From positions 1-19,128 of the forward strand of contig SVCR01000005.1 of NCBI GenBank assembly GCA_015058265.1: a stretch of 19,128 nt of DNA. The letters run 5' to 3'. This DNA comes from Clostridiales bacterium (GTDB lineage: Bacteria > Bacillota_A > Clostridia > Peptostreptococcales > Anaerovoracaceae). A program made the position numbers and the translations under genes. Below the pieces are notes generated by a model, which was not told the DNA's origin, searched no databases, and was given only the letters and a program-made list of their open reading frames with translations. Each line of letters begins with the position of its first letter. Position 1 is the stretch's first letter. Of this stretch, positions 2 to 18,372 are shown one piece after another.

Positions 2-832
2 CAGCAGAGCAAATATGGTGTCGCAGCCATTCCGACCAATGAGCTGATGCACGGTAAGCACTATCTTGCTGACCGCATCAGGGAGGCGGCAGCTGCCGGA
101 AACCGCACGATAGTAATTGACTGTGTAACGCAGGAAGACCTTGACCTGATAGCAGATGCATGCATCACCAGCAAGCTCAAAGTGCTGGCTGTAGACCCGG
201 GAGTATTCACCGCAACTCTTGCCAGAAAGCTGATTACTCCATCAAAGAGCAGGGAGAAGAGCAAGATACTGGCAGTGATGGGAAGCGTACATCCTAATGC
301 AAGGACTCAGATGGAACAGCTCTGGCTTTCGCAGAGGACGTACAATGTCATGATAGCTACTAAAGAGCTGCTCGAAAGCGACGAACGCCGCGAGGCGGAA
401 ATCGCCAGAGTAGCGGCGGAAATACTGGAAAACTGCGACCGCAACCAGATATCTACTGTCACCGGAGACGGCATCTATCCTGAGAACAGGATAGATTTCG
501 GACCATACATGGAGAGATACAGCTGCTCTATGAATGACGTGACCGATATCATTAATAAGTCTCTTGCGGAAATCGCTCACCGCATATTCGTGGCAGAGCC
601 GACATTCAGGGCGCTGTATACAACGGGTGGAGACATCACAGTCTCTGTCTGTGAGCGCTTTGGAGCTGCCGGCCTCGACCTCAAAGATGAGGTGCTGCCT
701 CTTGCCGCTTATGGTACTATCCTGGGTGGTCCTTACGATGGTGTACATCTTATCACCAAGGGCGGCAGCCAGGGAGATAACGACGCTATCAATAAATGCA
801 TTACTTACCTCAAGGAGAAGATATTCATCTGA
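2..832 (+). CDS. Four-carbon acid sugar kinase family protein (DUF1537, DtnK/OtnK-like), 5' partial
   Basis: The reading frame is open to the left edge, so the gene begins outside the window; 276 residues are visible of a family that usually runs about 420-450. The visible part includes a GSVHPNARTQM segment and the C-terminal nucleotide-binding half, with VTGDGIYPE, TTGGDITVSV and GGPYDGVHLITKGGSQGDNDAI-type glycine-rich motifs characteristic of DUF1537 kinases. These enzymes phosphorylate C4 acid sugars such as D-threonate or L-threonate/D-erythronate at the terminal hydroxyl in the cytosol. The gene lies 55 nt upstream of a PdxA2-type dehydrogenase, the pairing known for the D-threonate pathway (DtnK plus PdxA2). 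Family assignment is strong; the exact substrate is inferred from the neighbours. The ATG at 47 is internal, because conserved-looking coding sequence precedes it. Confidence 0.85.
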   Translation, partial: QQSKYGVAAIPTNELMHGKHYLADRIREAAAAGNRTIVIDCVTQEDLDLIADACITSKLKVLAVDPGVFTATLARKLITPSKSREKSKILAVMGSVHPNARTQMEQLWLSQRTYNVMIATKELLESDERREAEIARVAAEILENCDRNQISTVTGDGIYPENRIDFGPYMERYSCSMNDVTDIINKSLAEIAHRIFVAEPTFRALYTTGGDITVSVCERFGAAGLDLKDEVLPLAAYGTILGGPYDGVHLITKGGSQGDNDAINKCITYLKEKIFI

Positions 833-887
833 TCGTTGGGAAACTATTACATCAAGTTATTACTAAACAGAATTAAGGAGGTGTTAG

Positions 888-1886
888 ATGAAAAAACCAC
901 TTATTGCTGTTACCCTGGGAGACCCTGCGGGAATAGGTCCTGAAATCGTAGTAAAGAGTATTGCAGATAAGGATCTCTTTGAAGAGGCAAACTGCATAGT
1001 TCTGGGAGATGCAAAGATCGTAAAGCAGGCGATCGAAGTAACAGGCGTCGATCTGAAGGTCAACTGCGTTGAGGATCCTGCAGACGGAGATTACAGCGAA
1101 GGCGTCCTCAACATGATCGACCTCGACAATATCGATATGGACAAATTCGAATACGGCAAGGTCAGCGCTATGTGCGGAAAGGCTGCGTTCGAATACATCG
1201 AGAAGAGCATTCAGATCACTATGGACGGCAAAGCTGACGCAGTAGCAACAGCGCCAATAAACAAGGAAGCTCTCCGCGCTGCAGAGATCAACTTTATAGG
1301 CCACACAGAGATCTTCGCTGAGCTCACAGGCACAAACGACCCGCTCACAATGTTCGAGACCAACGGAATGAGAGTGTTCTTCCTTACAAGACACGTATCG
1401 CTCCGCGACATGCTCGATATGATCACTAAAGAGAGAGTCATCGACTATGTGGAGAGATGCACAGAAGCGCTCGCAAGACTTGGGGTCACAGAGGGAACCA
1501 TGGCTGTTGCAGGTCTTAACCCTCATTCAGGAGAGCATGGACTGTTCGGCTGGGAGGAGGTCAACGAGATCGCTCCTGCAGTAGAAGAGCTCCAGGCAAG
1601 AGGTTTTGATGTAAAGGGTCCGGTTCCGGCTGACTCGGTATTCCACCAGGCGGCACTCGGCAGATACAACTCGGTACTGTCGCTGTATCACGATCAGGGA
1701 CACATTGCTACAAAGACTCTCGACTTTGACCGCACTATCGCGATCACAAACAGCATGCCTATCCTGCGTACTTCCGTAGACCACGGAACAGCATTCGATA
1801 TCGCAGGCAAGGGCATCGCAGGTGCTGTAAGCATGATCGAGTCTGTAAGACTCGCAGCCAAGTACGCTCCTTACTTCACTAAGTAG
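888..1886 (+). CDS. pdxA2: PdxA-family NAD-dependent dehydrogenase, probably D-threonate 4-phosphate dehydrogenase (PdxA2)
   Basis: A 332-residue protein with the whole PdxA signature: GDPAGIGPE (11-19), TAPINK (121-126), GHTE (138-141), NPHSGEHG (211-218), PADSVF (248-253 region), YHDQGH (267-272) and [11 protein letters not shown] near 297-307. H169, H213 and H268 are the likely divalent-metal ligands, by spacing against E. coli PdxA. An AGGAGGTG ribosome site sits just upstream of the ATG at 888. PdxA proper makes the vitamin B6 precursor, but PdxA2 paralogues next to DUF1537 kinases oxidise D-threonate 4-phosphate (or an epimer), which decarboxylates to dihydroxyacetone phosphate. With the kinase immediately upstream and a GntP permease downstream, the catabolic role is favoured over pyridoxal phosphate synthesis; this is inference from context. 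Confidence 0.88.
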
Positions 1887-1895
1887 GAAGCGAAC

Positions 1896-2041
1896 TGCAG
1901 GTGCCCAGCCGCAAGGCACGGGAGCACTGCATTAACTCAGATAATTGATAAGCCCCGGCAGGTTTCACAGAGACGCTAATCACCGGGAACCACCAGGGCT
2001 TAGAGATTATATCTGTCCGGGCGTCTTTTACGATGCCCGGA
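1896..2041 (+). promoter_or_regulatory. Structured untranslated region upstream of the GntP permease; candidate cis-acting RNA
   Basis: The roughly 200 nt between the dehydrogenase and permease genes can fold into three elements. A first hairpin has TGCAG/CTGCA and GTGCC/GGCAC arms (1896-1929). A long helix joins 1938-1955 to 1996-2015: CAGATAAT pairs with ATTAT-AT-CTG, followed by a T-G wobble, tandem G-A/A-G mismatches and a perfect TAAGCCC/GGGCTTA stem. It encloses a GGTTTC/GGAACC hairpin with a 19-nt loop. The third is a perfect TCCGGGC/GCCCGGA hairpin (2016-2022 with 2035-2041). None is followed by a U tract, so these are not plain terminators. I could not match it to a riboswitch class I know. 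The pairing is read by eye. Confidence 0.4.
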
Positions 2042-2085
2042 TGCGAATACAAACTACAGCTATTATAACGTATTGGAGGTTAAAT

Positions 2086-3492
2086 ATGGTAAACGGATTA
2101 GACGGAACCAGAATGCTGATCGCACTTTTCATCGGTATAGCGATCCTTATCGTTCTTGTTCTCAAGACCAAGGTTCAGGCCTTCCTGGCGCTGATCCTCA
2201 CAACCATCCTCGTCGGTGCTATCGGAGGCATGCCGCTTCTGAATATCACACTCGATGATGGTAAAACATTCGGTATTATCAACTCAGTCACGTCAGGCTT
2301 CGGCGGGACGTTAGGAAGCATAGGCATCATCATCGGTTTCGGTGTAATGATGGGACAGATCTTTGAGATCTCGGGTGCAGCCAAACGGATGGCGCACACC
2401 TTCCTCAAGCTCTTCGGTAAGGGTCGTGAGGAAGAAGCTCTCGCTATCACCGGATTCCTGGTATCGATCCCTATCTTCTGCGACTCGGGATTCATCGTAC
2501 TCTCGCCTATCGCTAAGGCTTTGTCAGAGACAACCAAAAAGTCTGTTATCGGACTCGGTGTTGCACTGGCATCCGGACTTGTAATCACTCACTCACTTGT
2601 ACCTCCTACACCGGGTCCTCTCGGAGTATGCGGTATCTTCGGTATAGACGTAGGTAAGTTCATCCTGCTTGCTATCGTGCTTGCTCTTCCTATGACTATT
2701 GCCTGCATCTTCTACTCAAGGAAGTTCCTGTCGAAGAAGTTCTACAGACTCCCTGATGAAGAGGGAAATATCGTAGACGCTGAGTATCAGGAGCCTAATT
2801 ACGAGGCAGCATTCAACATGGATATGACAGGTGTTCCGGGAACTCTCGAATCCTTCATGCCACTGATCCTGCCTATCATCCTGATCCTGATCAACACTAT
2901 CGCAACAGCACTCGGCGCAACAGAAGGCTTCATGGGAGTCATCGTATTTCTTGGACAGCCGATCGTAGCTGTAGGCCTCGGTCTTCTGGTCGCTATCTTT
3001 ACACTCGGCAGACCATTTGACCGTCAGACGATCCTTCAGGAGATGGAGAAGGGAATGGCTTCCGCAGGTATCATCATGCTCGTAACAGGCGGCGGCGGAG
3101 CTCTCGGACAGATCATCAAGGACTCCGGACTTGGTCAGTTCATGGCAGACGGACTGTCACAGACAGCTATCCCTATCATCATTCTCCCGCTGATCATCTC
3201 GACAGCAATGAGATTCATCCAGGGTTCCGGTACTGTAGCTATGACAACAGCTGCAAGTATCTCAGCTCCTATCCTCATCGCTGCTAACTCCAGCCCGATG
3301 CTCGGTGCTGTAGCATGCTGCGTAGGATCACTCTTCTTCGGATACTTCAACGATTCATACTTCTGGGTCGTTAACAGAACACTCGGCGTATCCGAGGCTA
3401 AGGAACAGCTGACTATATGGTCGGTCAACTCGACGATCGCATGGGCAGTAGGTGTTATCGAGATCATCATTCTCAGTATCTTCATGCACTAG
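2086..3492 (+). CDS. GntP-family gluconate/acid-sugar permease
   Basis: A 468-residue, highly hydrophobic inner-membrane transporter of the GntP family, which imports gluconate and related sugar acids with protons. Recognisable signatures are SIPIFCDSGFIVLSPIAKAL and THSLVPPTPGPLGV, equivalent to the SIPVFFD and H-x-x-PPxPGP regions of GntP proteins, plus many predicted membrane spans from the N-terminus (about residues 9-25) to the last residues. The start is placed at 2086 because GGAGG at 2075-2079 lies 6 nt upstream and the hydrophobic protein begins there; the longer open frame from 1945 would run through the structured leader with unconvincing residues. It lies between PdxA2 and an aldolase in one operon, so it probably imports the C4 acid sugar the kinase acts on. 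The substrate is inferred, not read from the sequence. Confidence 0.9.
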   Translation: MVNGLDGTRMLIALFIGIAILIVLVLKTKVQAFLALILTTILVGAIGGMPLLNITLDDGKTFGIINSVTSGFGGTLGSIGIIIGFGVMMGQIFEISGAAKRMAHTFLKLFGKGREEEALAITGFLVSIPIFCDSGFIVLSPIAKALSETTKKSVIGLGVALASGLVITHSLVPPTPGPLGVCGIFGIDVGKFILLAIVLALPMTIACIFYSRKFLSKKFYRLPDEEGNIVDAEYQEPNYEAAFNMDMTGVPGTLESFMPLILPIILILINTIATALGATEGFMGVIVFLGQPIVAVGLGLLVAIFTLGRPFDRQTILQEMEKGMASAGIIMLVTGGGGALGQIIKDSGLGQFMADGLSQTAIPIIILPLIISTAMRFIQGSGTVAMTTAASISAPILIAANSSPMLGAVACCVGSLFFGYFNDSYFWVVNRTLGVSEAKEQLTIWSVNSTIAWAVGVIEIIILSIFMH

Positions 3493-3512
3493 TCACTGAT
3501 AATAAGATGTAA

Positions 3513-3543
3513 GCAGGCGGCCATTGCACAGATGGCCGCTTGC
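3513..3543 (+). other. Intercistronic hairpin without U tract
   Basis: GCAGGCGGCCAT and ATGGCCGCTTGC form a 12-bp stem with a single G-U pair and a 7-nt loop (TGCACAG). No T run follows, so it is unlikely to end transcription; it may protect or delimit the upstream mRNA, or modulate expression of the aldolase relative to the permease. The folding is direct from the sequence; the role is inference. Confidence 0.5.
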
Positions 3544-3573
3544 GCAACTGATAAATAACAAAGGAGGGTCTTT

Positions 3574-4410
3574 ATGGCTCTTGTAACAATGAAACAGCTC
3601 GTGGACGATGCATGGGAAAAGGGCACATGCATCCCCGCGTTCAATGTCGGCAGCCTCGAGATGGTGCGCGGAGCTCTCCGCGCTGCAGAGGAGCTCGACG
3701 TGCCTGTCATCATCCAGATCGCAGAGAGACTGCTAAAATATTCACCGCTTGAACTGATCGGACCGGGAATGGTGCAGGCAGCAAAGGAATCGAAGCTTCC
3801 GGTAGCTGTCAACTTTGACCACAGCAGCACCTATGAAGTGATAGAGAAGGCTCTCGACCTCGGCTTCACGTCCGTTATGTATGACGGATCTACACTGCCG
3901 TTTGAGGAAAACATAGCCGGAACTCGCAGGATCGTTGAACTGGCTGATAAATACGGGGCTTCTGTTGAAGGAGAGCTCGGACTTGTCGGAGGAAGTGAAG
4001 ACGGATTATCCGATCACGGTATTCTCTGCACTAATCCTGACAAAGCGCATGAGTTCTGCGAGAGAACAGGCATCGCGTGTCTCGCCGTAGCAATAGGAAA
4101 CGCTCATGGAGACTATCCGACGGCTCCGGTCCTGGCATTCGATATTCTTGAACAGATCAACAGCAAGGCAGGGGTACCGCTGGTACTCCATGGCGGCAGC
4201 GGGATCTCCGACGAAGACTTCCGCAAGGCTATCTCTCTCGGAATCGCAAAGATCAATATTGGGACGGCTAGCTTCAACAATGTGACTAAGTTCGCATCTG
4301 AATATCTTGCAACAGAGGGTAAGCATACATACTTCGAATTGAATACAGCAATGACACAAGGCATGTATGAGAATGCCCTGAGACATATCAAGGTGTTCAG
4401 AGGCCTTTAA
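3574..4410 (+). CDS. Class II fructose-bisphosphate aldolase family protein
   Basis: A 278-residue class II (zinc-dependent) aldolase of the FbaA/KbaY/GatY/IolJ family, a cytosolic TIM barrel. Visible active-site elements: FDHSS with D82 and metal-ligand H83, YDGS (103-106), VEGELG (131-136) with E132 and E134, GNAHGDY with metal-ligand H178, LHGGSG with metal-ligand H206, and KINIGT (226-231) for phosphate binding. AGGAGGG precedes the ATG at 3574. It is the last gene of the acid-sugar operon, ending 27 nt before a strong terminator. The family cleaves or forms dihydroxyacetone-phosphate aldols. The upstream kinase and PdxA2 would release dihydroxyacetone phosphate, so the enzyme could condense it with glyceraldehyde 3-phosphate or split a related sugar phosphate. 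Whether the substrate is fructose-1,6-bisphosphate, tagatose bisphosphate or something else cannot be read from the motifs. Confidence 0.9.
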   Translation: MALVTMKQLVDDAWEKGTCIPAFNVGSLEMVRGALRAAEELDVPVIIQIAERLLKYSPLELIGPGMVQAAKESKLPVAVNFDHSSTYEVIEKALDLGFTSVMYDGSTLPFEENIAGTRRIVELADKYGASVEGELGLVGGSEDGLSDHGILCTNPDKAHEFCERTGIACLAVAIGNAHGDYPTAPVLAFDILEQINSKAGVPLVLHGGSGISDEDFRKAISLGIAKINIGTASFNNVTKFASEYLATEGKHTYFELNTAMTQGMYENALRHIKVFRGL

Positions 4411-4579: not shown

Positions 4580-5533
4580 ATGTTAGTTATTTTCAGCAAA
4601 GTGCTGGTGGTATTTATATATGTAGGGATCGGTTTCGCGGCGAACAGGCTTAAGGCGCTCCCGGATGAATGCGTGAAGTACTTCACTGCGCTCATAATGG
4701 ATATAACTGTGCCGTGCCTGATGATAAGCGCGATCACAGGACAGGATCTCGATGAAAAGCTGTATCGCAACACGATCATAACTTTGGTACTTACTACTAT
4801 TATATATGTGATAGTTGCTGTACTGTCGAGTCTGTTTGCTGACCATGTCTTCACGGATCTGGATCAGCAGGACCGCAACATATTAGCTTCGGCCATGACC
4901 GGATGCAATTCCGGATTCATGGGATTTCCGGTGACCAGAGCAGTATTCGGAAATACAGTGTTCTACTATGTGGTGATCCAGAATATCGCCAACAATGTGT
5001 ATCTGTTCATAATGAGCATACCGCACCTGCATCATAGGGAACAAACAGGCAGGAAGAAAAGATCTGTCAGAGAAATGCTGAAGCCTTTTGCCAATATAAC
5101 GACGATGGCAACGGTTTGCTCGATCATTCTTCTGTTTGCCGGGATACGCCTTCCTGAATACGCGATGAACATATTCACTGAGGTGGGGGACATCACGATC
5201 CCGTTGTCCATGATCCTGGTCGGAGTGCAGCTGGGCAGCTCGGATTTCGGCAGGATTTTCAGGGACAGAGATCTGCTCATCACTTCACTGGTCAAGCTGA
5301 TCATTGCTCCTCTGCTGGTTATGGCGATGGTGGCACCTCTTCCGGTGGATCCTGTCGTCAAGCTGGTCACAGTGCTGTGCACTTGCTTCCCAAGCGCCGC
5401 GATGGGAGTAGCAACAGCGGTCAAGGAACATAAGAATTCCACTCTCATGGCAGAGGCGGTCGCAGTCACTACCTTGCTGTCCATGATAACTCTTCCGGTA
5501 TGGATCATGATCTGCGGGAAGCTGTATATGTAA
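4580..5533 (+). CDS. AEC (auxin efflux carrier) family transporter
   Basis: A 317-residue polytopic membrane protein with about ten hydrophobic segments, the first at residues 3-22. The AEC family pattern is visible in the TVPCLMIS segment (43-50) and the NSGFMGFP motif (110-117), followed by QNIANNVYLF, and in a mirrored second half with IPLSMILVGVQLG, which suggests the inverted repeat of the bile-acid/AEC fold. An AGGGTGG ribosome site precedes the ATG at 4580. Bacterial AEC proteins move small carboxylates such as malate or malonate, or other organic anions; the substrate here cannot be told. A terminator lies upstream and a separate promoter-leader system downstream, so it is probably transcribed alone. 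Its nearness to the acid-sugar operon is compatible with, but does not prove, a role in carboxylate transport. Confidence 0.87.
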   Translation: MLVIFSKVLVVFIYVGIGFAANRLKALPDECVKYFTALIMDITVPCLMISAITGQDLDEKLYRNTIITLVLTTIIYVIVAVLSSLFADHVFTDLDQQDRNILASAMTGCNSGFMGFPVTRAVFGNTVFYYVVIQNIANNVYLFIMSIPHLHHREQTGRKKRSVREMLKPFANITTMATVCSIILLFAGIRLPEYAMNIFTEVGDITIPLSMILVGVQLGSSDFGRIFRDRDLLITSLVKLIIAPLLVMAMVAPLPVDPVVKLVTVLCTCFPSAAMGVATAVKEHKNSTLMAEAVAVTTLLSMITLPVWIMICGKLYM

Positions 5534-5627
5534 CACCGCTTTGGAACCATTTGGCGAAAGCAGCTAAAATGGCCGGCCTGAGTAATATACGAAAGAATAA
5601 ACCACATCGATGACTGATTTTAGTGGT

Positions 5628-5656
5628 TTGACATATAAGGGGCTGAGTGGTATATT
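5628..5656 (+). promoter_or_regulatory. Strong sigma-70-type promoter for the tyrS leader transcript
   Basis: A perfect TTGACA (5628-5633) and TATATT (5651-5656) are separated by exactly 17 nt, predicting a start near 5663. The -35 box overlaps the right arm of an inverted repeat, AAACCAC (5599-5605) and GTGGTTT (5623-5629), which could be a repressor site. Confidence 0.85.
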
Positions 5657-5690
5657 TTCTGTAATCGGTTCAAAAAAGGAGATTCTTTTA

Positions 5691-5756
5691 ATGAATACAC
5701 GCAGACTTGTAGCAGCGATCTATTATTACGACTATACTTCGGTGATCGAAGGATAA
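5691..5756 (+). CDS. Tyrosine-rich leader peptide of the tyrS attenuator
   Basis: A 21-codon ORF with ATG at 5691, TAA at 5754-5756, and GGAG at 5678-5681 nine nt upstream of the ATG. Codons 11-15 are TAT TAT TAC GAC TAT, giving the peptide core IYYYDY: four Tyr residues in five codons. It begins about 28 nt downstream of the predicted transcription start and is followed by a mutually exclusive antiterminator and terminator before tyrS. This is the layout of ribosome-mediated attenuation: when charged tRNA-Tyr is scarce, the ribosome should stall on the Tyr cluster and expression of tyrosyl-tRNA synthetase should rise. The ORF, Shine-Dalgarno site and codon cluster are seen directly; the mechanism is inferred by analogy with amino-acid operon leaders. 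Confidence 0.8.
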   Translation: MNTRRLVAAIYYYDYTSVIEG

Positions 5757-5759
5757 TTG

Positions 5760-5810
5760 TGCTGCGACAGTTTATGGACCGACAGGATGGTTGATTCCGG
5801 CTCCGCAGCA
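5760..5810 (+). promoter_or_regulatory. Candidate antiterminator of the tyrS attenuator
   Basis: TGCTGC (5760-5765) can pair with GCAGCA (5805-5810), and GGACCG (5776-5781) with CGG-C-TCC (5798-5804, one bulged C). Together they occupy the whole 5' arm of the terminator, so the two folds are mutually exclusive. TGCTGC can instead pair with GCAGCG (5712-5717) inside the leader ORF, just before the Tyr codons, which would release the terminator when no ribosome is present. A ribosome at the leader stop codon (5754-5756) would cover TGCTGC and favour termination, whereas one stalled on the Tyr codons would leave it free. Confidence 0.65.
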
Positions 5811-5828
5811 ACGCGGAGCCGATTTTTT
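5798..5828 (+). terminator. Intrinsic terminator in the tyrS leader (attenuator)
   Basis: CGGCTCCGC and GCGGAGCCG form a perfect 9-bp GC-rich stem around the 6-nt loop AGCAAC, followed by ATTTTTT. It lies 28 nt before the tyrS start codon and 41 nt after the leader-peptide stop, so it controls read-through into tyrS rather than ending an upstream gene. Confidence 0.9.
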
Positions 5829-5856
5829 AAGACACAACAAAGAAGGAGAAGTATCG

Positions 5857-7191
5857 ATGAAAAATTTAATTCCTGACAGTGTCAGTGAACACACCAATGT
5901 TTATGACGTCCTGATGGAGAGAGGACTGATCGAGCAGACTACTAATGGTGAAGCACTGAGAGAACTTCTGGGCAAAGAGAAGATCAAGTTCTACATAGGA
6001 TTTGACCCGACGGCAGACTGCCTGCATGTTGGTCACTTCATTCCGATGATCACCATGATGTATATGCAGAAGTACGGTCATACTCCGGTATTCCTGCTCG
6101 GCGGCGGAACCGGTGAGATCGGCGACCCATCAGGCAGAAGCGACATGCGTCAGGTAATGACAATCAATACGATCGACGAGAACTGCAGAGCGTTCAAGAA
6201 GCTTTTCGACAAATTCATCGACTTTGATGATGAGTGGAAGTATGAAGGCAATGAGGGTGTATACCATCCGGGTCATCAGAACAGAGAGCCTAAGCCGGGC
6301 TATGCTGTAAGCGTCAACAACGCTGAGTGGATCAGACCTTGCAAGTTCACCGAGTTCGCAAGAGAGATCGGTACACATTTCAATGTAAATACAATGCTGA
6401 GAGCTGACTGCTTCAAGTCTAGAATGGACAGAGACACAGGACTTTCCTTCTTCGAGTTCTCATACATGCTGCTCCAGGCTTACGACTTCTATGTGATGGC
6501 TCGTGACTTCGATCTAAAGGCACAGTTCGGCGGAAACGACCAGTGGTCCAACATCATTGCCGGTGTCGACCTGACAAGAAAGGCATGCGGTAAGGAGGTT
6601 TACGGACTTACAGTATCCCTCCTGACTACAAGCGAAGGCAAGAAGATGGGCAAGACAGCTAAGGGCGCTCTCTGGCTCGATGAGAAGAAGTGTCCTGTAT
6701 ATGACTTCTTCCAGTACTGGAGAAACGTCGCTGATGCTGACGTAAACAAGTGCCTGAGAATGCTGACATTCCTGCCTATGAGCGAGGTCAACAGACTGTC
6801 CGCACTCGAAGGATCAGCTATCAACGAGGCTAAGGAGATCCTTGCTTACGAGGTCACTAAGCTTGTCCACGGCGAAGAGAAGGCTAAGCAGGCTCTCGAG
6901 ACAAGCCGTCAGATCTTCGCAGGCGGTGGAGTTTCCGATGACATGCCTTCAGTTGAGATGGATAAGGCTAAGTTCGAGGGAGAAGGAATGGGACTCGCAG
7001 CACTTCTTAAGGAAGCAGGACTCGAGCCATCGACATCCGAGGCTTACAGAACTATCCAGGGCGGCGGTGCAAGGATCAACGGCGAGCAGATCACAGATAA
7101 GAAGTTCGCGGTAACACTTGACTGCTTCAAGGACGGAGAACTCGTACTCCAGAAGGGCAAGAAGAAGTTCAAGAAGATCGTACTCAACTAA
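5857..7191 (+). CDS. tyrS: Tyrosyl-tRNA synthetase
   Basis: A 444-residue class I synthetase that charges tRNA-Tyr with tyrosine. Visible features: YIGFDPTADCLHVGHF with the HIGH-type HVGH near residues 49-52, the substrate-pocket run QAYDFYVMARDF and FGGNDQWSNI, the KMSKS-equivalent KMGKT in EGKKMGKTAKGALWL, and a C-terminal S4-like RNA-binding domain (about the last 65 residues). The start is set at 5857 because AAGGAG lies 8-10 nt upstream and the longer frame from 5791 would be encoded inside the terminator stem. Compared with E. coli TyrS there is a short insertion before the NNAEWI segment (PGHQNREPKPGY region). Expression is probably controlled by the leader-peptide attenuator just upstream. 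Preference for codons such as GTA, GCT and AAG suggests good expression. Confidence 0.97.
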   Translation: MKNLIPDSVSEHTNVYDVLMERGLIEQTTNGEALRELLGKEKIKFYIGFDPTADCLHVGHFIPMITMMYMQKYGHTPVFLLGGGTGEIGDPSGRSDMRQVMTINTIDENCRAFKKLFDKFIDFDDEWKYEGNEGVYHPGHQNREPKPGYAVSVNNAEWIRPCKFTEFAREIGTHFNVNTMLRADCFKSRMDRDTGLSFFEFSYMLLQAYDFYVMARDFDLKAQFGGNDQWSNIIAGVDLTRKACGKEVYGLTVSLLTTSEGKKMGKTAKGALWLDEKKCPVYDFFQYWRNVADADVNKCLRMLTFLPMSEVNRLSALEGSAINEAKEILAYEVTKLVHGEEKAKQALETSRQIFAGGGVSDDMPSVEMDKAKFEGEGMGLAALLKEAGLEPSTSEAYRTIQGGGARINGEQITDKKFAVTLDCFKDGELVLQKGKKKFKKIVLN

Positions 7192-7490: not shown

Positions 7491-9464
7491 ATGGCAAGAA
7501 AACAATACGACAATAACAGTATTTCTATGCTCAAGGGCGCGGAAAGAGTTAGAAAGCGTCCGGGAGTAATATTCGGTTCAGATGATATCGAAGGCTGCAT
7601 CCACGGTTTCTTCGAGATAGTTTCCAATTCTACTGACGAAGCCAAGACGGGACACGGAGACAGGATCGAAGTCATCAGATTCACAGACGGATCGATCCAG
7701 GTCAAGGACCACGGCAGAGGGGTCCCGATGGACTGGAATGAAGCTGAGGGCAGATACAACTGGGAGCTGTGCTTCTGCGAACTGTACGCGGGGGGCAAAT
7801 ATTCTGATGCGAATTATGACTACTCGCTTGGTCTCAACGGACTCGGCGCAGCAGCGACTCAGTATGCTTCAGAATGGTTCGATGTAACGTCTGTAAGAGA
7901 CGGCTTCGAGTATACGATGCATTTTGAGAACGGTGACCCGGTCGGCGAGCTCGGCAAGAAGAAGGTCAGAGGAAGACCGACGGGTACTGTTCAGAGGTGG
8001 AAGCCGGATGCTGAAGTATTCACTGAAACAGATATCCCGCTTGAGAGATTTCAGGAGATACTGCGTCAGCAGGCTATCGTCAATGCGGGCATAACATATA
8101 TGCTCCATGATGAGGAGTCGGGTGAAGATTTTTCATATCTCTATCCGGAAGGAATACTCGGTTATGTGTCCGAGCTTGCCGGTGAGGATGCGATGACGAC
8201 GCCGTTCCTCTTCTCAGGAGAGGGCAAAGGCCGTGACCGGGCAGATAAGGAAGAATATTCAGTAAAGGCTGATATCGCATTCTGCTTCAATAACAAAACT
8301 CAGATCCTGAGATATTTCCATAACTCATCGTTCCTCGAGCACGGCGGATCACCTGATAAGGCGGTGAAGAACGCTTTGGTCTCGGCTTTCGACAAAGAGA
8401 TCAAGACGCGGGGGAGATACACTGCGAAGGAAGCAAAGCTGACCTTCGGAGATATCCAGGACAGCCTTATCCTCGTCACCAATTCATTCTCGACTCGTAC
8501 GTCTTATGAGAACCAGACGAAGAAGGCGATCAACAATAAATACATACAGGAATTTCTGACAGATCTGATCAAGACGAATATGCAGATATGGTTTATTGAG
8601 CATAAGCCGGAAGCTGACAAGATCATAGATCAGGTGCTGATCAACAAGAGGAGCAGAGAGCAGTCTGAGAGCCAGCGGATCACTGTGAAGAAGAAGCTGA
8701 TGGAGAAGACGGATGTGACTAACAAGGTCAAGAAGTTCGTCGACTGCCGCAGCAAGGATCCGGAACAGAGAGAGCTCTTCATCTGCGAGGGTGATTCTGC
8801 TCTCGGAAGTCTGCTGACTGCAAGGGATCCGAACACACAGGCTCTGATGCCTATACGAGGCAAGATCCTGAACATACAGAAGGCTTCGCTTCAGAGCGTT
8901 TTCGGGTCGGATATTATCATGGACCTGATCAGGGTCATGGGATGCGGCATAGAGGTGAGAGGTAAAAAGCTGCCTAAGGATATCCCGCAGTTCGATGAGA
9001 GCCGTCTCAAATTCAACAAGGTCATCATCACAGCGGATATGGATGTCGACGGATCGCACATCGTATGCCTTGTGACCACGATGATATACAAGCTCTGCCC
9101 GCAGCTGATAGAAAAGGGCTATCTCTATTACGCGATGACACCGCTCTTCGAGATCACTGACAGGACGGGGAAGAAACCTGAGACGCTGTATGCCTTCAGC
9201 GATGCTGAGAGGGATCAGCTTATCAAAGGAAAAGATCCTAAGAAGCTGACTATACAGAGATCGAAAGGACTCGGAGAGAACGACGCGGATATGATGGCGA
9301 GATTCATCACCCCGGGTACCCGCAGGTTTATAAGGATCACAGCGGCTGAGGCCGAAGAGATGGAAAAATGGTTCGACCTCTTCATGGGCAATGATGTTGC
9401 ACCGCGCAAAGAATATATAGAAGAGCATGGTCATGAGTATATGAATGACCTTGATCTCAGCTAG
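7491..9464 (+). CDS. parE: Type IIA DNA topoisomerase ATPase/TOPRIM subunit (ParE/GyrB-like, divergent)
   Basis: A 657-residue GHKL ATPase plus TOPRIM protein. In order: RPGVIFGS (23-30), ATP-site FFEIVSNSTDE (40-50) with catalytic E42 and Mg-ligand N46, DHGRGVP (73-79), GLNGLG lid (114-119), QTK switch lysine (342-344), TOPRIM EGDSA (433-437) and DMDVDG (516-521) with metal acids D516, D518 and D520, then a KGLGE segment. The key catalytic residues are present, but the surrounding motifs depart from the GyrB/ParE consensus (EVVDNS is EIVSNS; GLHGVG is GLNGLG). It lies 11 nt before the matching A-subunit gene, with which it should form an A2B2 decatenase/relaxase. The length fits topoisomerase IV better than a full gyrase B. 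The ribosome site (GGGG) is weak. Confidence 0.88.
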   Translation: MARKQYDNNSISMLKGAERVRKRPGVIFGSDDIEGCIHGFFEIVSNSTDEAKTGHGDRIEVIRFTDGSIQVKDHGRGVPMDWNEAEGRYNWELCFCELYAGGKYSDANYDYSLGLNGLGAAATQYASEWFDVTSVRDGFEYTMHFENGDPVGELGKKKVRGRPTGTVQRWKPDAEVFTETDIPLERFQEILRQQAIVNAGITYMLHDEESGEDFSYLYPEGILGYVSELAGEDAMTTPFLFSGEGKGRDRADKEEYSVKADIAFCFNNKTQILRYFHNSSFLEHGGSPDKAVKNALVSAFDKEIKTRGRYTAKEAKLTFGDIQDSLILVTNSFSTRTSYENQTKKAINNKYIQEFLTDLIKTNMQIWFIEHKPEADKIIDQVLINKRSREQSESQRITVKKKLMEKTDVTNKVKKFVDCRSKDPEQRELFICEGDSALGSLLTARDPNTQALMPIRGKILNIQKASLQSVFGSDIIMDLIRVMGCGIEVRGKKLPKDIPQFDESRLKFNKVIITADMDVDGSHIVCLVTTMIYKLCPQLIEKGYLYYAMTPLFEITDRTGKKPETLYAFSDAERDQLIKGKDPKKLTIQRSKGLGENDADMMARFITPGTRRFIRITAAEAEEMEKWFDLFMGNDVAPRKEYIEEHGHEYMNDLDLS

Positions 9465-9475
9465 GAGTTCACTGA

Positions 9476-11674
9476 ATGGCACGAAAGAAAAAAGCTGAAA
9501 CAGAAATAAAACCGATCATTGAGAATATAACAGATGCTCCGGCTCCTGAGGTGCTGAAGAACAACTTCATGCCGTATGCGATGAGTGTCATCGTATCCAG
9601 AGCGATCCCTGAGATAGACGGTCTCAAGCCTTCTCACAGGAAGATCCTCTATACGATGTATGAGATGGGGCTGCTCAACGGAGGCAGGACAAAATCCGCC
9701 AATGTCGCGGCCAGGACGATGCTGCTCAATCCGCACGGAGATGCTTCGGCATATGAAGCGGCGGTCAGACTCACTCAGCACAACGAGACTTTGCTGACAC
9801 CGCTTATCGACGGCAAGGGAAACTTCGGCAAACACTACAGCAGGGATATGGCATATGCGGCAAGCAGGTACACCGAGATGAAGCTCATGCCTGTTGCGGC
9901 GGAATTCTTCAGATCGATCAAGAAGAATACCGTGGACTTTGTCGACAACTACGATTCGACCAGAAAAGAGCCAACGCTTCTGCCGGTCACATTCCCGAAT
10001 ATCCTCGCCAATCCTACGGAAGGTATCGCGGTCGGAATGGCATCCTCTATCCCGAGCTTCAACCTTAATGAGCTTTGTGATGCAACGATCATGAGGATAC
10101 AGCATCCGAGAAAGGATATCGCTGAAGTGATGCCGGGACCGGATTTCACGACAGGCGGGCTCCTTCTGCTGAACACTGAGACGATGTCCGAAATATACCG
10201 GACCGGAAGAGGTTCTGTCGTACTCAGGGCTAAATACTCAGTAGATACCAAGGCCCGTATCATCGAGGTAAGCGAGATACCTTATTCCACAACGGCCGAA
10301 GCTATAATCGACGGAATCATTTCGCTTATCAAGGCGGGCAAAGTCACAGAGATATCCGATGTCAGAAATGAGATCGGTCTCCATGGGTTCAGACTGGCGA
10401 TCGATTACAAGAGAGGCGTTGACCCTGATGCTCTGATGATGAAGCTGTACAGGATGAGCAAGCTGCAGGATACTTACTCCTGCAACATGACGGTCCTGAT
10501 CGACGGGCATCCGAGACAGATGGGGGTCTGCGAGATCCTCGACGAGTGGATCAAGTGGAGAAGGATCTGTGTTGTCAGAGAACTGTTCTATGACCATGAG
10601 AAGAAAGCCAGGGAGCTGCATCTGCTCGAAGGTCTTGCCAAGGTGCTGCTGGATATAGATAAAGCGATAAGGATCATACGCAAGACTGAAAGAGATGACG
10701 AGGTAGTTCCTAACCTCATGAAGGGGTTCAAGATCACCGAGGAGCAGGCGGAGTTCATCGCGGAGATCAGACTGCGCAATCTGAACAAGGACTATATCCT
10801 CAACAAGACCAAAGCAATCGAACAGCTGAAGGCTGATCTCGATCTCATAGACAAACAGCTGAGATCCGAGAAAGAAATAGACAAGCTGATAATCAACACA
10901 CTGAGGGAGATCCAGAAGAAATACGGCATACCTCGCAGGACGGAGATTCTGACAGAGTACGAGACCGTTGAAGTGAAGGAAGAACCGGTCGCTGATTATC
11001 CGGTCAAGTTATATGTGACCAGAGACAGCTATGTTAAGAAGATCGCTTTGACATCGCTCAAAAACGATCCTGAGATCAAGTTCAAAGAGGGAGATGAACT
11101 CGTATCTGTTTATGACAGCATGAACTCATCAGAACTGATCGTATTTACCGACAGACAGGCGGTATATAAGGTCAAGCTGTCTGAACTCAAAGACTCCAAG
11201 CCTTCGGATATCGCGGATTATATCAATAATATATGTGAGATCGAGCAGGGCGAGAATATAATCAAGGTCTGCACATCTGATGCCGGATCGACAGTCCTGA
11301 TCGGATTTGAGAACGGCAAGGTGGCGAAATTCCCGTTCTCGGCTTATGAGACCAAGCAGAACAGGAAGAAGCTGCTCAATGCATACGGAAGCGTATCGAA
11401 GCCTCTCAGGATATTCATCATTAAAGAAGATGAGGACTTTGCAATGCAGAGTTCTACCGGAAAGCTGCTGGTGTTCGACAGTTCCAAGGTGCCGACCAAG
11501 ACGACCAAGAGCACTCAGGGAGTACAGGTGCTGAGACTCACCAAGGGCGCTACAGCGGTCAGCTTCGGCAGAGTCAAGGAGTACAGGCTGAAGAAGAAAG
11601 AGGACTACAGATCAGCTAATATCCCTGCAGCGGGAAAGATGCACGCTAATGTGCAGCTGAGTCTGTTCGATTGA
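9476..11674 (+). CDS. parC: Type IIA DNA topoisomerase subunit A (ParC-like, divergent)
   Basis: A 732-residue breakage-reunion subunit. The winged-helix region carries HGD (87-89) and GKGNFG (113-118), and the catalytic tyrosine is Y132 in AASRYTEMKL, next to R131. A tower/coiled-coil region runs to about 470, followed by a degenerate beta-pinwheel C-terminal domain (about 510-732) that ends in QLSLFD. No intact GyrA box (QRRGGKG) is seen, which argues for a topoisomerase IV-like decatenase rather than gyrase. At the quinolone-pocket positions equivalent to E. coli GyrA Ser83 and Asp87 it has A90 and E94. Its AGGAG ribosome site overlaps the stop codon of the upstream subunit (gap 11 nt), so the two are translationally linked. 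Confidence 0.88.
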   Translation: MARKKKAETEIKPIIENITDAPAPEVLKNNFMPYAMSVIVSRAIPEIDGLKPSHRKILYTMYEMGLLNGGRTKSANVAARTMLLNPHGDASAYEAAVRLTQHNETLLTPLIDGKGNFGKHYSRDMAYAASRYTEMKLMPVAAEFFRSIKKNTVDFVDNYDSTRKEPTLLPVTFPNILANPTEGIAVGMASSIPSFNLNELCDATIMRIQHPRKDIAEVMPGPDFTTGGLLLLNTETMSEIYRTGRGSVVLRAKYSVDTKARIIEVSEIPYSTTAEAIIDGIISLIKAGKVTEISDVRNEIGLHGFRLAIDYKRGVDPDALMMKLYRMSKLQDTYSCNMTVLIDGHPRQMGVCEILDEWIKWRRICVVRELFYDHEKKARELHLLEGLAKVLLDIDKAIRIIRKTERDDEVVPNLMKGFKITEEQAEFIAEIRLRNLNKDYILNKTKAIEQLKADLDLIDKQLRSEKEIDKLIINTLREIQKKYGIPRRTEILTEYETVEVKEEPVADYPVKLYVTRDSYVKKIALTSLKNDPEIKFKEGDELVSVYDSMNSSELIVFTDRQAVYKVKLSELKDSKPSDIADYINNICEIEQGENIIKVCTSDAGSTVLIGFENGKVAKFPFSAYETKQNRKKLLNAYGSVSKPLRIFIIKEDEDFAMQSSTGKLLVFDSSKVPTKTTKSTQGVQVLRLTKGATAVSFGRVKEYRLKKKEDYRSANIPAAGKMHANVQLSLFD

Positions 11675-15828: not shown

Positions 15829-16818
15829 ATGAAGCTCACTGTCATCAGAACTGATAATACAGATCCGTATGAAAATCTGGCCGCAGAAGAGCATCTGACA
15901 TTCAATGTCGAAGAGGATGAGGTCATTCTCTTCCTGTGGCAGAATGCGCATACAGTAGTTATCGGAAAGAATCAGAACCCGTGGAAGGAATGCAACGTTG
16001 AGCAGATCAAGGAAGACGGGGCATATCTCGCCCGCAGGATGTCAGGCGGGGGAGCTGTTTATCATGACATGGGCAATCTGAATTTCACTTTTGCCGCAAG
16101 AGACGGACTGTATGATATCTCACGGCAAACGGAGATCATCCTTCTGGCATGCAGGATGATGGGTATCCATGCGATGAAGACAGGCAGGAATGACCTGACT
16201 CTGGACGGAAAGAAATTCTCCGGGCATGCGTACTATTCTTCAGGCGGATATAATTATCATCACGGAACGATCATGATCGACGTTTCGTCTGAGGATCTGC
16301 CTAAGTATCTGGCGGTCTCGGCAGCCAAGCTGAGATCCAAGGGAGTGGATTCCGTAAGATCCCGAGTGGTCAATCTGCGTGAGCATCTGGAGAAAAAGAT
16401 GCCGGGTGCTTCAGTTGCGGAGATGGTGAGCGCGATGCAGGATGCTCTGGTAAGAGCAGCTGCAAGAGAATATGGCTGCAGCGCCGAAGAGCGTGAGCTG
16501 CCGGCAATACCGGAAGAGCTCTTCGAGAAATACAGATCAGAGGAATGGCGGCTCGGCACAAGGATCCCGTTCAGCAGGGAGCTGATACACAGGTTCGAAT
16601 GGGGAGAAGTCCAGATACTTCTGGAGATGAAGGGCGAATACATCAAGTCCTGCAAGGTGTATTCTGATTCTCTGGAGACCGAGATATTCCCGGTGCTCGA
16701 AGAGCTTCTCACAGGATGCAGATATGATGCGGCGGAGATCATGGCTCTGAAGGTGCCGCAGGGAGTATCGGCAACCTCCTATGAATTGTTGAAGTACATA
16801 GCTGCTTCTATAGACTAG
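15829..16818 (+). CDS. lplA: Lipoate-protein ligase A
   Basis: A 329-residue cytosolic enzyme that activates lipoate with ATP and attaches it to lipoyl-domain lysines such as that of GcvH. Signatures: NLAAEEHL (16-23), RRMSGGGAVYHDMGNLNF (69-86), GRNDLTLDGKKFSG (119-132) with the likely catalytic lysine K129, and HHGT (144-147). A C-terminal accessory domain (about 245-329) is present, so this is a complete single-protein ligase. It starts right at the stop of the upstream membrane-protein gene; GGAG at 15817-15820 lies 8 nt upstream. It precedes lpdA, with gcvPB beyond, which points to lipoylation of the glycine cleavage H protein or another 2-oxoacid complex. Confidence 0.95.
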   Translation: MKLTVIRTDNTDPYENLAAEEHLTFNVEEDEVILFLWQNAHTVVIGKNQNPWKECNVEQIKEDGAYLARRMSGGGAVYHDMGNLNFTFAARDGLYDISRQTEIILLACRMMGIHAMKTGRNDLTLDGKKFSGHAYYSSGGYNYHHGTIMIDVSSEDLPKYLAVSAAKLRSKGVDSVRSRVVNLREHLEKKMPGASVAEMVSAMQDALVRAAAREYGCSAEERELPAIPEELFEKYRSEEWRLGTRIPFSRELIHRFEWGEVQILLEMKGEYIKSCKVYSDSLETEIFPVLEELLTGCRYDAAEIMALKVPQGVSATSYELLKYIAASID

Positions 16819-16909
16819 ATATTTGATTCCGGCCGGAAGGCAGGGATCTTATATAAATATAGTAAAGTAAAACCCTATTGCTAATACTAAACAGGAAGGT
16901 AAAGTAATT

Positions 16910-18286
16910 ATGAGTGATTATCAGTATGATCTTCTCATCATCGGCGCAGGTCCCGGTGGTTATGAAGCAGCATTCTATGCACAGGAACTCGGAATGAAGA
17001 CAGCGGTAGCTGAATGTGACCGTGTCGGCGGAACATGTCTCAACCGCGGATGCATCCCGACCAAAGCTCTTATGCATTCATCCGATGTCTATCGCGATGC
17101 TGCACATGGCGCGGCGATTGGAGTTGAGGTAGAAGGACTCAAGGCCAATCGCGTAAGGATCGGCGAGAGAAAAGACGAAGTGCTTGATACTCTGAGGGGC
17201 GGAATATCAGGACTTCTCAAGAAAAAGAAAATAGATGTCCTCGAAGGACAGGCTGTTATCGTATCCGAGCACGAAGTAAAGATCGGTGACGAGGTCTTCA
17301 CAGCTGAGAATATCATGGTCGCTACAGGATCCATGCCATCCATGCCGCCTATTCCGGGTTCGGATCTGCCGGGCGTTATCGACAGCACAGAGCTGATCAA
17401 CATGGGCGGAGAAGAGATCCCTGAATTCGTCATCATCGGCGGCGGCGTCATAGGAATCGAATTCGCTACGATCTATGCTGACCTCGGCGATCATGTAACC
17501 ATTATCGAGGGAATGGACAGACTCCTGCCGCTTCTCGACAAGGAGATCGGCCGCAGCATCAAGATGACTCTCGAGAAGAAGGGCGCAGACGTACATGTAA
17601 GCTCCCCTGTTAAGAAGATCGAGAAGGACGGAGACAAGCTCGTCGTTACTCTTACGAACAAGAAGGGCGAAGAGATATCCGTCAAGGCTGACAAGGTCCT
17701 GATGTGCGTAGGCAGAAGACCTAATACAGCCGGCGTATTCAGTGAAGAGTTCCTTCAGAAGTATGAAGGAATCAAGGACGGCAAAGGCTTCATCATTGTT
17801 GACGATGAATACAAGACTGCATGCCCGAGCGTTTATGCTATCGGAGACTGCATCGGCGGCATCCAGCTCGCTCATACTGCAAGTGCAGAAGGCAGGAACG
17901 CTGTAGCGATGATGAACGGCAAATCTGCATCGATCAATATGGGAACCGTTCCGAGCTGCATCTACACAGATCCTGAGATCGCAGTTGTAGGCATGACCGC
18001 AGACGAAGCCAAAGCAGCAGGTATCGATGCTGTATCCAAGAAGTATCCTATGTCAGCTAACGGCAAGACCATCATAGCAGGACTTGACAGAGGCTTCGTA
18101 AAGCTGATCGCAAGAGCAGATGACCATAAGCTTATCGGTGCGCATCTTATGTGCGGAAGAGCATCCGACCTTATCGGTGAGCTGGCTGTAGCTATCGGAA
18201 GAGGAATGACTCTCGAAGAAGTAGCTAACATCATCCATCCGCATCCATCCTTCGCAGAAGCGATCATGGAGGCAGCAAGGCTGTAA
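16910..18286 (+). CDS. lpdA: Dihydrolipoamide dehydrogenase (E3 / L-protein)
   Basis: A 458-residue FAD- and NAD-dependent flavoprotein that reoxidises dihydrolipoyl groups in the glycine cleavage system or 2-oxoacid dehydrogenases. Visible: FAD-binding GAGPGG (12-17), the redox disulfide C43/C48 in GGTCLNRGCIPTKA, NAD-binding GGGVIGIEFA, the second FAD motif YAIGDC, and the C-terminal HPHPSFAEAIMEAA with the catalytic His-Glu pair. No lipoyl domain is fused at the N-terminus. The AGGAAGG ribosome site is upstream of the ATG at 16910. The 91-nt gap from lplA contains an AT-rich stretch (16851-16865) and a TTCCGGCCGGAA palindrome, but no clear promoter with both boxes. A strong terminator follows. 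Confidence 0.97.
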   Translation: MSDYQYDLLIIGAGPGGYEAAFYAQELGMKTAVAECDRVGGTCLNRGCIPTKALMHSSDVYRDAAHGAAIGVEVEGLKANRVRIGERKDEVLDTLRGGISGLLKKKKIDVLEGQAVIVSEHEVKIGDEVFTAENIMVATGSMPSMPPIPGSDLPGVIDSTELINMGGEEIPEFVIIGGGVIGIEFATIYADLGDHVTIIEGMDRLLPLLDKEIGRSIKMTLEKKGADVHVSSPVKKIEKDGDKLVVTLTNKKGEEISVKADKVLMCVGRRPNTAGVFSEEFLQKYEGIKDGKGFIIVDDEYKTACPSVYAIGDCIGGIQLAHTASAEGRNAVAMMNGKSASINMGTVPSCIYTDPEIAVVGMTADEAKAAGIDAVSKKYPMSANGKTIIAGLDRGFVKLIARADDHKLIGAHLMCGRASDLIGELAVAIGRGMTLEEVANIIHPHPSFAEAIMEAARL

Positions 18287-18304
18287 TTAACTGAAATGAA
18301 TGAA

Positions 18305-18344
18305 AACAGCGTGTACGCATATACTGCGTGCACGCTGTTTTTTT
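18305..18344. terminator. Bidirectional intrinsic terminator between lpdA and gcvPB
   Basis: AACAGCGTGTACGCA and TGCGTGCACGCTGTT form a 15-bp stem with one G-U pair around TATAC, followed by a run of T on the + strand. The - strand reads the same stem followed by TTTTC, so it can serve both convergent genes. It lies 18 nt after lpdA and 28 nt from the gcvPB stop. Confidence 0.93.
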
Positions 18345-18372
18345 AATCGTATTCAGAACAGAGTCTCTGATA

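Follow-up and report, generated by a model that had tools for sequence, protein, structure and literature searches.

The window analyzed here, a stretch of 19,128 nucleotides (contig SVCR01000005.1, assembly GCA_015058265.1), belongs to a gut or rumen relative of the Clostridia in the family Anaerovoracaceae and contains tyrS, the gene of tyrosyl-tRNA synthetase (TyrRS), preceded by a leader region and, upstream of that, by a gene for an auxin-efflux-carrier-like transporter. Elsewhere in the window, a D-threonate-kinase-like gene, a PdxA family gene, a GntP family transporter, and a class II aldolase (47-4410) form a cluster that looks like a sugar-acid utilization operon, and a gyrB/parE-like and gyrA/parC-like pair (7491-11674), scoring below the cut-offs of the listed NCBIfam models, is a divergent type II topoisomerase pair, perhaps topoisomerase IV. 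Lipoate-protein-ligase-like and dihydrolipoamide-dehydrogenase-like ORFs were recognized by eye in 15829-19128, as was, on the minus strand at the end of the window, a glycine-cleavage P-protein-like ORF. The features of the leader region and of tyrS are as follows.

5628..5656, + strand, sigma-70-type promoter TTGACA-17-TATATT of the leader transcript (scan, 11/12 consensus)
5676..5681, + strand, Shine-Dalgarno sequence AAGGAG for the leader ORF (read from the letters)
5691..5756, + strand, leader peptide ORF of 21 codons, MNTRRLVAAIYYYDYTSVIEG and stop (read directly; relatives have counterparts)
5706..5837, + strand, match to the R2 covariance model (81.5 bits, E = 6.8e-14), of whose 41 members the window sequence is one
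5712..5717, + strand, region 1, GCAGCG, Ala codons directly 5' of the Tyr run; partner, region 2
5721..5735, + strand, control codons TAT TAT TAC GAC TAT (Tyr-Tyr-Tyr-Asp-Tyr)
5737..5751, + strand, stem H (CTTCG..CGAAG), inside the 1:2 hairpin, 3' of the Tyr codons and 5' of the stop codon (covarying pairs)
5760..5766, + strand, region 2, TGCTGCG, 3 nt past the stop codon; partner, region 1 or region 3
5798..5828, + strand, intrinsic terminator 3:4 with T tract (pair counts, scan)
5803-5810, + strand, region 3, CCGCAGCA, terminator 5' arm and loop
5843..5848, + strand, Shine-Dalgarno sequence AAGGAG of tyrS, outside the terminator (read from the letters)
5857..7191, + strand, tyrS, tyrosyl-tRNA synthetase, the putatively regulated gene (TIGR00234, 406.9 bits; cut-off 113.8)

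Both direct reading and the scan place the promoter hexamers at 5628-5633 and 5651-5656, separated by a 17-nt spacer, with a TG preceding the second hexamer. Four codons in five of the control segment are Tyr codons (5721-5729 and 5733-5735), and the stem of the terminator (5798-5821) consists of nine pairs, eight of them G-C, closing a loop of six, followed by one A and then by T6 (5823-5828). The TGCTGC at 5760-5765 is complementary both to GCAGCG at 5712-5717 and to GCAGCA at 5805-5810. A first-pass annotation, made from the letters of the window, had proposed the promoter, the leader ORF with its ribosome site and four Tyr codons in five, the terminator with its T6, and the two pairing options; all were found at the positions it gave. 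Of 2000 dinucleotide shuffles of 5537-5856, one contained an ORF of 8-50 codons in which a five-codon stretch has four or more Tyr; on either strand of the window, the leader ORF is the sole one of this description. The R2 match is likewise the only one in the window up to E = 1.

For comparison with relatives, contigs were scanned with the TyrRS protein and the best 80 of 148 relatives were taken as tyrS loci, many of which are from ruminant-gut metagenome-assembled genomes labeled Mogibacterium sp. or Clostridiales. A Tyr-run leader lies upstream of tyrS at 17 of these best 80 loci, some being copies of each other (L001-L004, L007, L009, L010, L011, L016, L018, L021, L023, L045, L065, L068, L071, and L072). 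The relatives provide sixteen further non-identical tyrS leaders, one of them split from tyrS by an insertion, and the final tally is 17 tyrS leaders, the window and L280 included; the copies or near copies L023, L045, and L071 are in no alignment, and L002 is absent after alignment A2. None of the 17 leaders has fewer than three Tyr codons in its run. The Tyr codons come after region 1. Region 2 is mostly TTTTGCTGCG, and its distance from the first letter of the stop codon, measured in 16 tyrS leaders, is 4-5 nt in 12 of them and never more than 20 nt; in the window, which is outside the 16 measured, the distance to the start of TGCTGC is 6 nt by eye. The leader peptide reads VAAIYYY in most tyrS leaders, with VPAIYYY, VYIYYY, and NNNNYYYY as variants. 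In the last of these (L072), regions 1 and 2 appear by eye to be altered together, AACAACAAC with TTTTGTTGT, and in both L018 and L072 region 1 is out of register with the other leaders. Outside the genus sample, L098 and L099, with 77% and 76% TyrRS identity, have HKQAYYYLF and a region 2 of TTTTGTTGCGA. The comparison of tyrS upstream regions that the first-pass annotation had suggested thus bears out its expectation of conserved Tyr codons with drifting peptide flanks.

Many close relatives have no such leader, and control by the tyrS leader is therefore dispensable. By eye, a similar promoter stands directly before tyrS in the leaderless L012-L015, L017, L019, and L076, and a promoter with a hairpin remnant and a poor T tract is found, the ORF having gone, in L005, L008, and L022. 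At L280/L006 (G188:C129), the leader is intact and about 1.9 kb of other DNA precedes tyrS. In a 46-row TyrRS tree, which has many weak branches and includes the broken, long-branch L072, the state of the leader changes at least five times. A script applied to 109 upstream regions (80 from a separate retrieval and 29 of 30 others, some repeating earlier loci; L120 was not oriented by the script) recovered the L098 and L099 leaders and, in four more regions, a second and different type of Tyr leader before tyrS, with its own promoter (L190 in G135, L192 in G077, L194 in G122, and L193 in G048; MRRHFVLQVIYYAY..., MKFKGFSQIYHAYAY...). The ATG is only 9 nt past the -10 box in all four of these, so the mRNA may be leaderless. 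By eye, a seemingly covarying hairpin follows their Tyr codons, its 5' arm being complementary to the 5' arm of the terminator; the pairings of this second type that can be drawn by eye would not yield the usual sense of control.

When RNAalifold was applied unprompted to 15 tyrS leaders, it predicted the 1:2 pairing, the inner stem H, and the 3:4 terminator. Judged against shuffles that ignore kinship, 1:2 together with H is 92.7% paired with a covariation score matched by none of 500 shuffles and four doubly changed pairs (as high in 2 of 500), and 3:4 is 97.8% paired with a score reached in 2 of 500, whereas 2:3 is 84.8% paired, compared with 39-59% when slid, and its score was reached in 59 of 500. 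An alignment of 41 leaders of several genes, in which regions 1 and 2 recur at several gene types, gave similar values: 1:2 is 87.3% paired, with neither its covariation score nor its 20 doubly changed cells reached in 500 shuffles, although doubly changed pairs and pair types are not unusually many (as many in 60 and 124 of 500, respectively), and 2:3 is 87.7% paired as against 38-66% when slid, its score being reached in 90 of 500. The 1:2 and 3:4 pairings are thus backed by covariation, and 2:3 by complementarity that is maintained mostly through changes to G-U, with covariation in neither alignment above that of the shuffles. Covariation of all three pairings had been anticipated by the first-pass annotation, and it exceeds that of the shuffles for the two hairpins but not for 2:3. 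In the predicted untranslated fold of the window, 5664-5672, just 5' of the leader Shine-Dalgarno sequence, pairs with 5773-5782, past region 2, enclosing 1:2; by eye, similar pairings seem possible in relatives, some of them involving Shine-Dalgarno letters.

The predicted effect of ribosome position was calculated by equilibrium folding of transcripts ending before the terminator 3' arm, with a 29-nt mask placed at either the first Tyr codon or the stop codon. In part, the drop in 2:3 pairing when region 2 is masked follows from the design of the calculation. Of 97 leaders tried, 8 had no terminator that could be found; L346, L362, L320, L361, and L269 were left out. Moving the mask from the stop codon to the first Tyr codon raises the expected number of 2:3 pairs by more than 0.5 in 80 of 89 leaders, and the remaining 9 have no such difference. 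By gene, the rise is seen in 15/17 leaders of tyrS, 19/19 of the tyrosine phenol-lyase-like (TPL-like) enzyme described below, 41/47 of DAHP synthase, 3/4 of prephenate dehydrogenase, 1/1 of a TrpX-like gene, and in L281 (1/1). The means for tyrS leaders are 10.5 expected pairs when stalled, 3.0 at the stop codon, and 6.1 when untranslated; the leader of the window itself has 10.7, 6.2, and 9.5, a weak separation.

The tyrS leader is one of a wider set in the family. Covariance models built from the 15 tyrS leaders (R1) and from the 41 leaders (R2) were used in genome searches, R1 matching 29 of 47 genus genomes (E ≤ 0.01) and 39 of 349 family genomes (E ≤ 0.001), and R2 matching 118 places in 101 of the 349 family genomes. 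Of 393 genomes sampled from the order, 60 have a match at E ≤ 1e-4, and all of these were already in the family or genus searches; this sample gave no match outside the family, which is Anaerovoracaceae to judge from one named member. Since both models include the letters of the Tyr run, a Tyr run in a match is not independent evidence, but the downstream gene is. Besides tyrS, the genes following the leaders are DAHP synthase-tyrA operons, the TPL-like enzyme, prephenate dehydrogenase, and once a gene for a TrpX-like transporter; the leaders found with R1 include MKQRNNFAAEYYYYYYLDGVAVLL and its kin before a 482-residue beta-eliminating lyase and the FAAEYYYYYFFF type before DAHP synthase. 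At 60 of the 118 R2 places, the first recognized gene (tblastn) is DAHP synthase in 49, TPL-like in 6, including the decayed L361, and prephenate dehydrogenase in 3, with no gene recognized at the remaining 2; DAHP synthase is followed by prephenate dehydrogenase at 44 of these 60 fetched places. The first gene at 28 R1 loci is TPL-like in 15, DAHP synthase in 6, prephenate dehydrogenase in 1, TyrRS in 1, and none in 5; the last five include L274, where the TrpX-like gene scores 284.5 bits with NF041285, under the cut-off of 390, and L268, which, like L346, has no gene in view. Nine of the 118 R2 places, those in G191, G267, G136, G089, G147, G095, G123, G343, and G248, are outside these gene counts, and L269 was left out of alignment A5. 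Two model matches, L278 and L282, lacking a Tyr/Phe leader, were taken as false; at L277 the filter recognizes no leader ORF, and the downstream letters resemble the start of DAHP synthase. The aromatic leaders of Anaerovoracaceae form an alike set and are probably homologous.

Several loci of this set have other features. At L361 (G092:C14) a Tyr/Phe leader is kept before a decayed lyase-like gene of which only open pieces are left, and at L320 (G159:C75) and L281 (G159:C69) Tyr-run leaders with a terminator are followed by no recognized aromatic gene, the long ORFs that come next being endonuclease IV-like by eye and a NosR-family match below cut-off. A Cobalamin riboswitch is present on the minus strand at 1-175 of L270, next to a DAHP synthase locus.

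Within the set, the codon run fits the gene that follows. The richest eight-codon stretch was counted in 98 leaders, four more leaders without a recognized gene not being counted. At least two Phe codons in eight are present in 47 of 55 DAHP synthase leaders as compared with 1 of 43 others (17 of TyrRS, 21 TPL-like, 4 of prephenate dehydrogenase, and 1 TrpX-like), a contrast with a Fisher p of 2e-18 when kinship is ignored; the lone exception among the 43 belongs to a decayed lyase copy. With the bar lowered to one Phe codon, the counts are 51/55 and 6/43. The eight-codon means in the DAHP synthase leaders are 4.27 Tyr and 2.75 Phe. The candidate sensor codons are thus Tyr and Phe for DAHP synthase and almost only Tyr for tyrS, the TPL-like enzyme, and prephenate dehydrogenase. 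DAHP synthase serves all aromatic amino acids and the other genes, the TrpX-like one aside, serve tyrosine, so that the sensor codons appear to follow need. Leaders with gene-matched codons provide a test case for the spread of an attenuator and for change in its specificity.

Three of five features of the attenuator class are found in the sequence of the tyrS leader: a leader ORF with a codon run, the protector 1:2, and the terminator 3:4. From these parts and their conservation, we infer that the tyrS leader is a ribosome-mediated (leader-peptide) transcription attenuator, a reading to which we assign a probability of about 0.9. Transcription would start downstream of 5656, and a ribosome would translate the 21-codon leader. 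When charged tRNA-Tyr is scarce, the ribosome would stall at 5721-5735 and cover region 1, leaving 2:3 to pair, so that the terminator is blocked and tyrS is transcribed. With charged tRNA-Tyr available, the ribosome would reach the stop codon and cover region 2, allowing 3:4 to form and transcription to terminate before tyrS, and without translation, 1:2 would form and the terminator would win again. The proposal of a Tyr-codon attenuator at tyrS in the first-pass annotation is therefore supported, but its scope was too narrow, the tyrS leader being a member of the wider aromatic set.

Control of tyrS in Bacillota is classically by a T-box, and in Bacillus subtilis the tyrS T-box gives more tyrS when tRNA-Tyr is uncharged, the tRNA being sensed directly and without translation. 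A rival reading is that a T-box or degenerate T-box governs tyrS, with the Tyr-rich ORF incidental, and T-boxes are common in the family: matches at E ≤ 0.001 were found in 9 of 10 genomes in a first search (one over the cut-off), before genes read by eye as thrS, trpB, asnB, and leuA-like, and the family sample has such matches in 141 of its 148 genomes, with 90 above the curated cut-off. Three tyrS of the family, L158, L221, and L223, are preceded by a T-box at gathering score. However, the window has no Rfam match at gathering score, nor a match to the T-box family RF00230 in the search that the first-pass annotation had recommended, and there is no T-box among the four sub-threshold matches obtained with 5530-5870 up to E = 10. 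No T-box was found at gathering score in the scanned tyrS-leader loci, no Rfam family in the leaders of 28 leader loci (8 and 20), and no Rfam element at 20 outgroup tyrS loci, with Emergencia, Baileyella, and Mobilibacterium among them; at many of these outgroup loci, the end of an ORF, by eye upp, is just upstream. The absence of a T-box, as the first-pass annotation had it, stands, with the correction that AGGATGGT, the one sequence it thought faintly reminiscent of the motif, is at 5784-5791 and not 5785-5792. The alternative anatomy of an attenuator is also conserved and complete. T-box control of the window tyrS is already refuted, as far as Rfam RF00230 is sensitive, and its likelihood is close to nil. 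The T-boxes at three tyrS and the leader peptides at others indicate that both controls of this gene coexist in one family, and tyrS with a T-box, with a leader-peptide attenuator, or, in many cases, with neither, with a remnant stage between, makes up a natural series of regulator exchange.

Two other explanations accept the short ORF or the hairpin and give it a different role. TnaC is a nascent-peptide arrest sensor in which the peptide, and not hungry codons, stalls the ribosome for a ligand, and the conservation of VAAI before YYY in most tyrS leaders of the genus is what such a sensor would lead one to expect. Nevertheless, the residues before the Tyr run vary, with VYI, NNNN, and HKQA at tyrS and FAAE and FTAE at other genes, and the nucleotide pairing is mostly kept while the peptide varies; RNA pairing accounts for the conservation of GCAGC. 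An arrest peptide that itself stalls the ribosome upon ligand binding is thus improbable here. A hairpin acting as a constitutive or growth-rate terminator, beside an unrelated small protein gene and with no sensing of amino acids, is rated a shade lower still. Some close relatives retain the promoter alone or with a terminator remnant, which indicates that tyrS works without a sensor and is in keeping with such an arrangement, but it does not account for the fit of codon identity to the downstream gene over 98 leaders or for the recurrence of regions 1 and 2 at several types of gene. Moreover, loss of the ORF goes with loss of the terminator or a poor T tract in the 10 ORF-less relatives compared by eye, and the leaders without ORF that keep the remaining structure, a case the first-pass annotation had raised against its own proposal, are not seen among them.

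The TPL-like enzyme falls within the tryptophanase/tyrosine phenol-lyase subfamily (NF009709, 568.8 bits). Its score with the tyrosine phenol-lyase model, 442.3, exceeds those with the two tryptophanase models, 338.3 and 399.0, all three being below the equivalog cut-offs, and among its relatives of solved structure tyrosine phenol-lyases match best (398 bits as compared with 329 for a tryptophanase); its alignment also contains a MERG stretch, which we take to be typical of tyrosine phenol-lyase. Of the 47 genus genomes, 25 have the lyase, one further match of 37% identity having been left out, and by coordinates an R1 or R2 match is directly upstream in 22 of the 25. In G002 the leader and the lyase gene are at contig ends, and G178 and G192 have no R1 or R2 match upstream of the lyase. 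If the attenuator has the usual sense, tyrosine shortage would switch the lyase on, as suits a synthetic role more than a degradative one. Replacement of prephenate dehydrogenase by the lyase was considered and rejected, as the two show no association in the 47 genomes, whose completeness is unstated, at either PF02153 threshold: strong matches (E < 1e-15; 13 genomes) occur in 5/25 genomes with the lyase and 8/22 without (Fisher p = 0.33), and matches over the Pfam cut-off (21 genomes, the other 8 being short or borderline) in 8/25 and 13/22 (p = 0.08). A strong match is missing from 20/25 lyase genomes and 14/22 others, and at the looser Pfam cut-off from 17/25 and 9/22; since a missing prephenate dehydrogenase is also common without the lyase, its absence gives no independent support for a synthetic role.

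A more comprehensive proposal is that one homologous attenuator spread among aromatic genes, with its codons retuned for each gene to give a Tyr/Phe regulon, and that in the genus of the window it was recruited to the lyase, which would then be made in tyrosine shortage. The part concerning a translation-coupled Tyr/Phe regulon is well supported, and the lyase is hypothesized to work in the synthetic direction, from phenol, pyruvate, and ammonia to tyrosine; taken as a whole, the proposal is tentative and somewhat doubtful. Should the lyase truly be induced by tyrosine shortage, it would offer a concrete test of a reversible enzyme as a tyrosine synthase in ammonia-rich guts.

Leader-peptide attenuators as such are already known. 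The closest in type are the trp, pheA, and pheST attenuators (PMC11802643) and the his attenuator (PMC9413887) of Escherichia coli, with which the present leaders share an ORF of cognate codons, alternative hairpins, and a terminator, pheST being a case at an aminoacyl-tRNA synthetase; they differ in having Tyr or Tyr/Phe codons, in belonging to a Bacillota family, and in matching no Rfam family at gathering score. The nearest counterpart of the DAHP synthase members is the Corynebacterium glutamicum AroR leader, with Phe-Tyr-Phe, before aroF (Neshat et al. 2014, via PMC11802643), the likeness being in the type of control. AroR is reported to respond to limitation for Phe and not Tyr (PMC11802643) and, unlike the present set, is from Actinobacteria and is not at tyrS; C. 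glutamicum leader peptides under starvation have also been described (PMC6892785). Among predicted attenuators at Gram-positive aminoacyl-tRNA synthetase genes are those of Streptomyces trpS and leuS (PMC1262725), which are likewise of the classical kind but concern Trp and Leu in Actinobacteria, with no tyrS case among those described in the available portion.

Within Bacillota, His leader peptides have been described in bacilli (Naville and Gautheret 2010, PMC2965389) and His attenuators in several groups (BMC Genomics 2022, PMC9413887). As in the present case, leader peptides predicted by comparison replace T-boxes there, including at the hisS paralogues hisS* and hisZ, but those leaders have His codons and precede his genes, in bacilli, Lutispora and Peptostreptococcaceae, and Erysipelotrichales, whereas the runs described here are of Tyr or Tyr/Phe. 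The Tyr T-box of B. subtilis tyrS (Henkin et al. 1992, Grundy et al., via PMC2494555) controls the same gene in the same predicted sense, but the leader of the window has no match to the T-box model. In the literature within reach of the search, most of it outside subscription journals, we encountered no Tyr leader at tyrS, no Tyr/Phe leader in Bacillota, and no leader peptide at tyrosine phenol-lyase. Thus, leader-peptide attenuation, the predicted His attenuators of Bacillota included, is a known form of control, and the new elements are specificity for Tyr at a Bacillota tyrS and a family-wide regulon in which the codons are tuned to the gene.
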